DNA of 11,876 bases from Thermoleophilia bacterium (GTDB lineage: Bacteria > Actinomycetota > Thermoleophilia > RBG-16-64-13): contig JAFGIH010000310.1 of assembly GCA_016929985.1 (NCBI GenBank), forward strand, positions 1-11,876, written 5' to 3'. The position numbers were made by a program, and so were the translations under genes. Numbering within the stretch: the first letter of the stretch is position 1; each line of letters begins with the position of its first letter. The notes beneath the pieces are model-generated. The model had not been told where the DNA came from. It was given only the letters and a program-made list of their open reading frames with translations, and made no database searches. Positions 4,047 through 10,431 of the stretch are shown here, piece by piece.

Positions 4047-4814
4047 ATGGCTAACAACAAAGTCTTTACGGACGGCTACCAGCTGTCCGTGGTGGTCACC
4101 GACCCGGCAGCCCCGGACGCCGGCGACCCGGTGCGCTACGGTCTCTTGACCGGCGTGGCCCTCACCGACGAGGGCGGGGGCGGTAACGCCGCGACCGAGA
4201 CCACAGTCGACTTCGGTCCGGGCGTCTGGGACCTGTCTGTGGTCGATGAGGTGGGGGGCGGCATCGCCGTAGGTGACGCGCTCTTCTACGACGATGCCCT
4301 CGATGGGATCACCAACGATCCTTCCGGCAACTACTTCTTCGGTTTCGCCAACGAGGCCGTAGGTATCGGTCTTACTGCCACCATCATGGTCATCCACGTC
4401 CCGGCTCCGGGCTCCGGTACGCTGGGCGCGGGTACCATCGCGACGGCCAACCTGGCGGCGGGCATCCTGTCGGCCGATGTGAACGGCCGCGCCAAGATGG
4501 CAGCCGGCTACTTCACCGCGGCTGCAGTCACGGACAAGTTCGCGGTCGACACGGTGACGGGGCGCGAGATAGCGACCGGCGTCGTCAACGTCGCTCTGGC
4601 AGCCGGGACCAATTCGGGCGTGGACGTTGCTCTGGTCGGCATGGCAGCGGGAGATGAGATCGTCAGCGTGTTGTCGTTCACGACTGCTGCTGCAATCGCC
4701 ACCGTGGCCGATCGCACGGCGGAGTATGCGGCCGGCACGGATGAACTGACCAAGGCCGCGGGCACCGACGAGACCAACAACCAGCTCCTCATCATCTGGA
4801 TCGACAAGACCTGA
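4047..4814 (+). CDS. Capsid decoration (cement) protein, DUF2190-like, with extra C-terminal domain
   Basis: A 255-residue protein. Residues 1-118 resemble DUF2190-type decoration proteins: a beta-rich small barrel with DAGDPVRYGLLTGVAL near the start, then DFGPGVWDLSV, then AVGDALFYDDALDGIT, and a closing strand TATIMVIHVP. Such proteins bind the outside of the mature capsid and stabilise it against internal pressure. After a Gly/Ala/Pro linker (119-135) comes ATANLAAGILSADVNGRAKM and a second beta-rich domain (about 155-255) that ends LLIIWIDKT; this part probably projects from the capsid surface. ATG 4047 has AAAGGA at 4030-4035. The gene ends with two in-frame stops, TGA then TAG, and a strong terminator follows. 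Position between scaffold and major capsid genes supports the role. The C-terminal domain is not recognised. Confidence 0.8.
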   Translation: MANNKVFTDGYQLSVVVTDPAAPDAGDPVRYGLLTGVALTDEGGGGNAATETTVDFGPGVWDLSVVDEVGGGIAVGDALFYDDALDGITNDPSGNYFFGFANEAVGIGLTATIMVIHVPAPGSGTLGAGTIATANLAAGILSADVNGRAKMAAGYFTAAAVTDKFAVDTVTGREIATGVVNVALAAGTNSGVDVALVGMAAGDEIVSVLSFTTAAAIATVADRTAEYAAGTDELTKAAGTDETNNQLLIIWIDKT

Positions 4815-9565: not shown

Positions 9566-9594
9566 GCCCCCTTCTCAATTTGTCCCCGGACGAA

Positions 9595-9648
9595 CCCGGC
9601 CGTCTCCCTCCCAGGTGCGGCCGGGCCGGGGCACCCTAACCTGGGAGG
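9595..9648 (+). promoter_or_regulatory. Predicted H-type RNA pseudoknot sequestering the chaperone SD
   Basis: In the 87-base gap after the tail tube gene, stem 1 pairs CCCGGCCG (9595-9602) with CGGCCGGG (9618-9625), eight perfect pairs. Its 15-base loop contains CCTCCCAGGT (9607-9616), which pairs perfectly over ten bases with ACCTGGGAGG (9639-9648). The crossing order gives an H-type pseudoknot with a four-base loop 1, a one-base junction and a 13-base loop 3. The last arm contains the whole SD of the chaperone gene (GGAGG, 9644-9648; ATG at 9653), so translation would be blocked when folded. No T-run follows, so it is not a terminator. The base pairs are directly visible; folding and regulation are inference. 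Confidence 0.6.
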
Positions 9649-9652
9649 AACC

Positions 9653-10093
9653 ATGACAGAGAAGATCAAGGTGGCCGAGTATCACAACCGGCCCATCGTG
9701 GAGTTGGAACTGCCCGGCGGCGAGGTCCTGAAACTCCGTCAACCGCTCGAGCAAGACTACTTCCGCTGGCAGGACGTCACACAAGAGCACCGGAGGCGGG
9801 TCACCGACTACGGCGAGGAACTGGCGAAGCGGGCCGCCAAAAGGGCTGAAGAGACCGGCGACCCCGACGAGGGTAAGGCCCTTCTCAGAGAGGAATCGGC
9901 CGAGGAACGTATCCCAGTCGAGGTCACGGTACGTTATCTGCTGGCTTCGCGCCTGGCGATCTTCATCGAGCCGGAACAGACCCCGGAGCGTCTGCTCGAC
10001 GTGCTCGGCCCCGACATCATCCATGAACTGCTCCAACGGATCGACGCCATCATCGGCGGTGATGCGGCAAAAAAACGCCTAGCCGGGAACTGA
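9653..10093 (+). CDS. Tail assembly chaperone, zero-frame product (gpG-like)
   Basis: A 146-residue protein starting at ATG 9653 behind GGAGG (9644-9648). It is helical and charged, with VELELPGGEVLKLRQPLEQDYFRW near the start and a C-terminal segment LLQRIDAIIGG just before the slippery site. Genes in this position, between tail tube and tape measure, encode the lambda gpG-like chaperone that coats the tape measure and recruits tube subunits; it is not part of the finished tail. The short product ends six codons after a run of seven A, reading AAKKRLAGN before the TGA. Its sequence is not diagnostic by itself, but position, length and the frameshift that follows make the call firm. Its SD lies in a strong predicted RNA fold. 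Confidence 0.85.
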   Translation: MTEKIKVAEYHNRPIVELELPGGEVLKLRQPLEQDYFRWQDVTQEHRRRVTDYGEELAKRAAKRAEETGDPDEGKALLREESAEERIPVEVTVRYLLASRLAIFIEPEQTPERLLDVLGPDIIHELLQRIDAIIGGDAAKKRLAGN

Positions 10094-10431
10094 CCGGCCG
10101 CGACCTAGACCTGTATTACACTGAGCTCGCCTACTGGTATGGGCGGGGGGCTTGGGAGTTCCCCGATGCGCCCCGGGCTTGGGTCTCCAAGATGGCCCGC
10201 TATCTGCCCTATCACCGCGACCGAACGGTGCTCATGTTGGCTCGGGCCATCGCTTTGGCTATGACGGGCAAATTCGAGCCTGAGTATCAACCGGAGACTG
10301 GGACATCCACCGACCCCGAGACGGTCAGGAATACCGCGTTTCGCAAGCTGGACTCTGTTCGGGACAGACATCGGGGCGTGATCGGGAAGTACCGCAAGAA
10401 GAAGAGGGAGAGCTTTGGCACTAGGCGGTGA
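9653..10431 (+). CDS. Tail assembly chaperone, -1 frameshift fusion (gpGT-like)
   Basis: Ribosomes that slip back one base on A AAA AAA (10069-10075) continue in the -1 frame to the TGA at 10429-10431, giving join(9653..10075,10075..10431), a 259-residue fusion. The added 118 residues start TPSRELTGRDLDLYYTELAYW and include WVSKMARYLPYHRDRTVLMLARAIA, an aromatic and basic helical region typical of the T part of chaperone pairs, and a strongly basic end (KYRKKKRES). In lambda the G to GT ratio is set by the slip and the T part binds the tape measure. The -1 frame has an ATG at 10192 but no convincing SD, and the coding signal runs unbroken from the slippery site, so frameshift is the better explanation. 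Confidence 0.85.
10069..10098 (+). other. Programmed -1 ribosomal frameshift site with downstream hairpin
   Basis: The heptamer A AAA AAA (10069-10075) is in the right phase for simultaneous slippage of two Lys codons. Six bases after it, GCCGG (10082-10086) and CCGGC (10094-10098) form a five-base-pair stem with a seven-base loop that contains the zero-frame stop. Spacing and structure are as expected for a stimulator, although the stem is short and no pseudoknot partner for the loop is evident. Confidence 0.83.

Follow-up and report, generated by a model that had tools for sequence, protein, structure and literature searches.

In the window (the whole analysed stretch, 11,876 nucleotides), the gap that separates the genes for the tail tube and the tail assembly chaperone contains an H-type pseudoknot whose second stem takes in the Shine-Dalgarno sequence (SD) of the chaperone gene. 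This pseudoknot is real, and it is not a one-off: the element is far wider than the window phage, comparable folds made of quite different letters occurring at this junction in many phages of soil bacteria. The reading that we favour, with a probability of about two in three, is that the pseudoknot acts in cis in the late mRNA, where pairing of its loop with the ribosome-binding site (RBS) would hold synthesis of the chaperone below that of the tube protein.

The genes at the junction (summarized in Table 1) are separated by 87 nt. PF18906, a tail tube family, is precomputed on three of the tube relatives obtained by protein search, and the tube gene stands after a tail-completion-like gene, from which one small ORF separates it, and ahead of the tape measure gene. 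The chaperone relatives were likewise found by protein search. For the chaperone product, PHROG gave no match and Pfam none above the cut-off, and its identity was deduced from its place between the tube and tape measure genes and from the frameshift site. The 3' end of the gene carries the slippery sequence GCAAAAAAAC, and a −1 shift leading to 10431 would represent a typical G/GT frameshift. The residues AAKK are present at the chaperone C-terminus in 10/10 rows of alignment A2 and absent from the chaperones of L005, L012 and L036/L039. Within the tube protein, a histidine-bearing part of roughly 120 residues (~187-310) is absent from the tube of G257, which aligns at residues 2-186 and 311-451. 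The same part matches six places in a single 595-aa frame of G006 and, judging from these alignments, may be an inserted domain that is repeated elsewhere.

Table 1. Features of the tube-chaperone junction in the window, and S2 arms of its relatives
Feature	Position	Strand	Basis or partner
Tail tube (major tail protein) gene, 453 aa	8204..9565	+	ORF; 33 relatives; gene order
Tube stop codon	9563-9565	+	ORF
Outer stem 5' arm, CCCCGG	9584..9589	+	Minimum-energy folds; partner 9626-9631
S1 5' arm, CCCGGCCG	9595-9602 (9603 with wobble)	+	8 Watson-Crick pairs plus U9603.G9617; covariation
L1, 3 nt	9604..9606	+	Wobble pair counted
S2 5' arm, CCTCCCAGGT, anti-SD in the S1 hairpin loop	9607-9616	+	10 bp with 9639-9648
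S1 3' arm, CGGCCGGG	9618-9625 (from 9617 with wobble)	+	Pairs with 9595-9602
L3, 13 nt, with outer stem 3' arm (9626-9631) and recurring CACCCTA	9626..9638	+	Sequence comparison
S2 3' arm, ACCTGGGAGG, holds the chaperone SD	9639-9648	+	Pairs with 9607-9616
Tail assembly chaperone gene, 146 aa, G-type product	9653..10093	+	ORF; 9 relatives; ATG at 9653
Slippery GCAAAAAAAC and −1-frame extension (GT-type product)	10064..10431	+	AAKK at chaperone C-terminus
S2 arms in L002 and L010, CCTCCAGGT/ACCTGGAGG			
S2 arms in L003, CCTCCAGGG/CCCTGGAGG			
S2 arms in L036, TCTCCTCGGTT/AACCGAGGAGA			
S2 arms in L005, GCCCTCCA/TGGAGGGC			

Two perfect stems, S1 (8 bp; 9 bp with the U.G pair) and S2 (10 bp), cross in H-type order with loops of 4, 1 and 13 nt (3, 0 and 13 nt if U9603.G9617 is counted), and the SD, GGGAGG, lies inside S2. 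An earlier note on this DNA had described this arrangement, which we could reproduce to the nucleotide; 29 nt intervene between the stop codon and S1. Absent from the earlier note is an outer stem (9584-9589/9626-9631) that makes S1 longer.

A search of the whole window for two perfect stems, each of at least 7 bp, that cross in H-type order within a span of 70 nt gave only this knot and a version with a shifted S1 sharing the same S2. The inverted repeat of S2 was found in 0 of 200 whole-window shuffles. The earlier note had also called for a comparison with shuffled sequence, and here none of 300 dinucleotide shuffles of the gap reached the energy of the whole window knot. With S1 held fixed and the downstream part alone shuffled, the window gave p ~0.012, a modest excess for a single gap, and conservation is therefore the stronger evidence for the knot.

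In order to follow the junction in related phages, DNA was drawn from IMG/VR, GTDB and further genomes, the protein relatives being mostly metagenomic. A readable tube-chaperone gap was available for eight members of the clade (the window, L001, L002, L003, L005, L010, L012 and L036, the last corresponding to G257); L004 and L006, which end within the tube gene, and L007 and L008, whose match covers part of the tube only, were left out. In all eight gaps, that of the window included, the two stems cross and the second contains the SD, the loop of an S1-type hairpin being complementary to the chaperone SD while the letters of the stems differ. The loss of both stems from homologous gaps, by which the earlier note was prepared to be judged, is thus seen in none of the eight. 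Shuffles reached the observed value in 0/300 cases for the window, L001, L002, L005, L010 and L012 and in 1/300 for L003, and for L036 the conditional test with S1 fixed gave p 0.001. The conditional test was weak for L001 (p 0.041-0.055), L005 (0.048-0.054) and L012 (about 0.046-0.047). The knot is retained in L012, whose tube is 73% identical and whose chaperone is divergent. A CACCCTA-like sequence in L3 is kept across much of the clade, though it lies outside both stems. Among outgroup tubes, the next gene follows after ~9 nt in G271, overlaps in G748 and begins after ~24 nt in G679 (start uncertain), so that the gaps of G271, G748 and probably G679 have no room for the knot; the junctions of G423 and G539 (next gene unsettled) and of G278 and G445 stand outside this comparison.

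Covariation, which the earlier note had proposed as a check, was found in both stems: in S1 from the four rows of A8, and in S1 and S2 from swap tests, in which, as in the shuffle tests, kinship is ignored. MAFFT misplaces S1 or S2 in some short-gap rows; the column counts use the four rows (A8) and concern S1 and the outer stem only, the remaining rows being compared by swap tests. In A8, 96.2% of the cells of S1 and the outer stem pair, versus 35-54% in slid versions, and the covariation score of 0.282 was reached in 5/500 shuffles (0 to 0.077 in slid versions). Both partners had changed in two S1 pairs, with four pair types seen at one of these; this count of two was matched by 263/500 shuffles. 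The four outer-stem pairs counted in A8 are invariant and hence give the outer stem no covariation support. In the swap tests on the clade (n=8), the S1 arms paired with their own partners at a mean of −24.0 kcal/mol versus −8.2 with those of others (0/20000 permutations as good), and the loop with its own downstream region at −20.1 versus −13.5 (1/20000). The own partner was the single best, ties allowed, in 7/8 cases for S1 and 4/8 for loop and downstream region.

The same junction was then inspected in cultured phages, for which 30 records were picked by hand for diversity, neither at random nor by their RNA (8 of 40 listed rows, 15 of 60, 3 of 20, and 4 by accession). The JustBecause stretch falls short of the tail genes, which leaves 29 junctions after the major tail gene. 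The gap is shorter than 45 nt in eight of these (Methanoculleus virus, assigned from gene order alone, lambda, Giles, phiC31, Morrissey, phiT46-1, Typha and Javan36) and at least 45 nt in 21. A hairpin whose loop pairs over 7-13 bp downstream was found in 17 of the 21 (p up to 0.051, S1 fixed): TM4, Slimphazie, Boilgate, Fionnbharth, Olga, RedFox, Jamun, DirtyBubble, Didgeridoo, Glenn, AppleCider, CheeseTouch, Emalyn, SunnyD, Banquo, EvenBluerMoon and Sarge. The hosts of these phages belong to Mycobacterium, Arthrobacter, Microbacterium, Gordonia and Curtobacterium, and S1 is 12-16 bp long. MalagasyRose, also counted among the 18 cultured elements considered below, has a weak form only (6 bp), and the junctions of Erenyeager, Staphylococcus phage 77 and ReT1v-2, all with gaps of at least 45 nt, revealed no such element. 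As to the genes concerned, the CheeseTouch gap sits after a small gene overlapping the end of the tail gene, and a small annotated gene separates the knot from the chaperone in EvenBluerMoon and Sarge; the next gene has no chaperone annotation in ReT1v-2 and phage 77 and is called hypothetical in TM4 and Slimphazie.

Control gaps taken from part of the fetched records had S2 of at least 7 bp at p <0.05 in 0/28 cases, these controls being imperfectly matched (7/28 without a qualifying hairpin, others with weak hairpins or small loops). Two control gaps had 7 bp, with p 0.06 and 0.47; p-values for gaps without any S2 (0 bp) were disregarded. In the eight clade and 18 cultured elements taken together, the loop had a match at p up to 0.05 downstream in 23/26 and upstream in 1/26, the elements without such a downstream match being L001, SunnyD and MalagasyRose. 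Swap tests on the cultured elements (n=18) gave 0/20000 permutations as good both for S1 and for loop and downstream region, and the own partner was best in 17/18 and 7/18 cases, respectively; the low value for loop and downstream region is due to the loop types that related phages share.

DNA similar to the TM4 gap occurs in 253 mycobacteriophage records, 42 of them matching over at least 80% of its length, and 10/12 among the matches listed have no annotation under the match. In this gap (L093 1206-1314) and its relatives, three similar CCAGG-type stretches are able to pair with one loop.

The loops of cultured phages can often pair at two places, near the hairpin (site A) and at the chaperone RBS (site B, defined by construction as the last 22 nt before the chaperone start). 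DirtyBubble, for example, carries GGCTCCCG both beside the hairpin and within AAAGGCTCCCGCCATG, and in EvenBluerMoon and Sarge site B lies beyond the small annotated gene. At the 0.05 level (n=18), site A was significant in 15 elements, site B in 13 and both in 11, and for A as well as for B the own partners beat those of others (0/20000 permutations as good in each case). In 4/18 elements (Slimphazie, Glenn, AppleCider and MalagasyRose) the RBS partner does not exceed 6 bp and falls short of significance, and in three of them (Slimphazie, Glenn and AppleCider) site A alone pairs well; for the RBS partner of Banquo p was 0.07. Since site B is poor in these four elements, RBS masking is not the sole universal role, and pairing near the hairpin may be the older function. 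The proposal of the earlier note that an SD-masking regulator is present thus holds as regards a conserved, covarying pseudoknot that pairs with the chaperone SD, but it does not extend to those relatives whose loop pairs near the hairpin instead of with the SD.

The two sites also allow a bolder interpretation, which is possible although we would not count on it: a new and widespread RNA switch of phages, in which the loop would choose between a decoy (A) and the chaperone RBS (B). With A and B alike in sequence and pairing about equally strongly, the A/B ratio would set the fraction of open RBSs, buffered against conditions, and thereby a tube-to-chaperone set-point; loop, A and B would change together between lineages, and in the window's clade the outer S1 stem would serve as the decoy.

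As regards the favoured reading, repression of the chaperone through loop-RBS pairing, we infer that the element acts on translation, that it acts downward and that its purpose is the tube-to-chaperone ratio. The GC-rich S1 hairpin would expose a loop that can pair with the chaperone gene's ribosome-binding region, and S2 would exclude 30S subunits, so that chaperone output stays well below that of the abundant tube protein. Full shut-off would be prevented by a competitor, the outer S1 stem in the window and site A in many cultured relatives, the likely outcome being partial masking, that is a set-point instead of complete shut-off. A bound protein or ligand might take part, and is required by no evidence presented here.

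The S2 duplex of the window has −19.5 kcal/mol versus −10.2 for the SD with the 16S tail, and S2, once formed, should therefore keep 30S subunits off. The nested minimum-energy fold with the outer stem (9584-9652) has −37.0 kcal/mol and leaves most of the SD unpaired, while the raw stacks of the knot sum to −46.7 before loop penalties, which suggests that the two states may be close in energy. The full S1 (about 15 bp) with an L3 of 7 nt looks strained, and both this and the stable nested fold speak against the scheme.

It has long been asked how siphophages balance their supply of tube, chaperone and tape measure; the aspect that has been studied well is the frameshift determining the ratio of G to GT. 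The amounts are known to be unequal in lambda, whose tail has about 192 tube subunits while gpG and gpGT are absent from the virion (accessible text of PMC5009743). Loop-RBS pairing, if it acts as we propose, would place a second control between the tube and chaperone genes, a junction common in sequenced actinophages. It also suggests that hairpins labelled as terminators on phage maps are worth checking for pairing of the loop with an RBS.

A role at the mRNA end or in transcription appears unlikely, although several cultured phages speak for it. Here S1, with its loop paired to the nearby site, would form a compact knot that pauses or terminates RNA polymerase, or protects the 3' end of the abundant tube message, and RBS masking would be a later addition in the window's clade. 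Slimphazie, Glenn and AppleCider, with site A and no good site B, fit this explanation, as do the terminator-like hairpins at the junction of Erenyeager and Staphylococcus phage 77. In cluster O mycobacteriophages a stem-loop right of the major tail gene, thus in the same place of the late operon and with a similar stem length (12 bp), has been published as a likely terminator followed by TTTCT; the accessible text of PMC4351075 mentions no loop-RBS pairing, and the comparison is by description only. Against such a role, S1 is followed in the window by CCGGGGCA, and at least 4 T in the 8 nt after S1 occur in only 3/18 cultured elements. Moreover, a plain terminator needs no match between loop and RBS, yet 13/18 loops have one at p up to 0.05. 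An intrinsic terminator alone was rejected for the window, where the GC hairpin is present but has no U tract.

Autoregulation is to be regarded as similarly improbable; here the knot would be bound by the tube protein, the chaperone or some other protein of phage or host, with a change in RBS access, as in the case of S15 at rpsO. The architecture resembles that of protein-bound leaders, and the L3 sequence conserved outside the stems would suit a binding site of this kind. On the other hand, the stem sequences diverge greatly from one lineage to another, and in L012 the knot persists although the chaperone is divergent.

That the stems arose by chance in GC-rich DNA, or are inverted repeats acting as DNA (operators, for example), is most improbable: the knot stretch is ~80% G+C in the window and the single-gap p-values with S1 fixed are modest, but both stems are kept with changed letters, the permutation tests, the downstream/upstream asymmetry and the control gaps all oppose chance, and an operator would preserve letters, whereas here complementarity is preserved instead. 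Stimulators of readthrough or frameshifting need a fixed short spacer, whereas anything from 3 to 64 nt separates the tube stop from S1 across the 26 elements (29 nt in the window), and a part in stop-codon readthrough or frameshifting of the tube gene was rejected as scarcely credible. The location of the pseudoknot downstream of the tube stop would suit such a part, as would the second major tail product that Listeria phages make via +1 frameshifting (accessible text of PMC5009743).

The element is apparently undescribed, SD-masking pseudoknots being well known as a kind. Searches against Rfam 15 gave no matches at gathering score in the window, L001, L002, L003, L005, L010 and L012, and no matches in L090, L093, L094, L096, L097, L098, L099 and L103 (15 sources in all). 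The leader knot of T4 gene 32 is a protein-nucleation site upstream of the RBS. Our element has in common with it that a phage mRNA pseudoknot is tied to translational control, but here the knot includes or abuts the RBS. With H-type SD-masking riboswitches such as SAM/SAH (accessible text of PMC7367207) and preQ1, our element shares the fold. Their second stem likewise holds the SD in its 3' strand. In contrast to these riboswitches, no conserved ligand pocket was recognised in our element, the sequence of S1 is free to vary and there is no Rfam match. The mycobacterial rpsO leader, in which a leader pseudoknot controls translation (accessible text of PMC8470358), is comparable as a pseudoknot in a 5' leader acting on translation, whereas the present one lies between two genes of a phage late operon, frequently has a pair of partner sites in competition and has no link to S15. 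Identity with the rpsO/S15 leader was rejected, the downstream gene being the phage chaperone and not rpsO.

The SAS and ESAS of cluster K and EF phages are likewise conserved features at phage translation starts; the SAS is a fixed 13-bp sequence, and RNA pairing received little support in the authors' work on the ESAS (accessible text of PMC3203893 and PMC7302621). The TM4 element, in contrast to the SAS, has another sequence, and its relatives covary. The cluster K Start Associated Sequence (13 bp, GGGATAGGAGCCC, at the start codon) was rejected as a candidate, the RBSs of TM4 and the window differing from it by eye. In the accessible literature on pseudoknots and stem-loops with tail chaperones, tail tubes and mycobacteriophages, from which subscription papers are mostly absent, the element is not described. 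This is in line with the earlier note, which knew of no regulator at this junction, the one exception being the presumed terminator of cluster O (accessible text of PMC4351075).

Further copies were sought with RNA models and sequence patterns. An RNA model built from four members recovered L010 (E 1.3e-6) and L012 (E 0.0014) and did not recover L001 and L005. On 25 loci it matched, besides the members, L061 (0.00025), which lacks an anti-SD loop, and, at 0.014, the opposite strand of L036. On 399 genomes, five had a match at E up to 0.01; one of these is the known locus of G257, and the other four, which resemble terminators or chance matches, were rejected. Searching viral contigs and cultured phages with single sequences for close relatives gave nothing useful. 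A pattern search with the window S2 returned one contig (L027), whose palindromic match lacks a following start and was rejected. A scan for the L3-SD pattern yielded 35 stretches, among which the knot is present in L016, L017 and L079 only, all known tube/chaperone contigs. The first S2 pattern scan yielded 14 stretches, two of them known tube/chaperone contigs and one, L024, with a knot before an HNH gene; no convincing S1 was seen in the remaining 11.

The L024 knot (minus strand, start codon at 4333) is of the same kind, with S1 of 12 bp, S2 of 9 bp and L3 of 4 nt. It precedes an HNH endonuclease gene near the terminase genes, and the conditional test gave 10/2000 shuffles, which indicates that the design also occurs away from the tail junction. 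The matching part of L061 (13245-13281) consists of a promoter-like TTGACA stretch and a mini hairpin followed by GGGGCACCCTAACCTGGAGG, the L3-SD wording of the clade, and has no anti-SD loop. The 'pseudoknot RNA' annotated in Giles (L094 4908-4975) was rejected: it is a long hairpin inside the start of gp17, and it does not lie at the stop of gp15, the gene taken as the major tail gene. Terminator-like hairpins with a loop that also matches the SD of a small gene following them occur upstream of the tube gene in L036, before the start at 1310, and in L041/L038 (minus strand), before the start at 294; these hairpins are possibly a second use of the same design.
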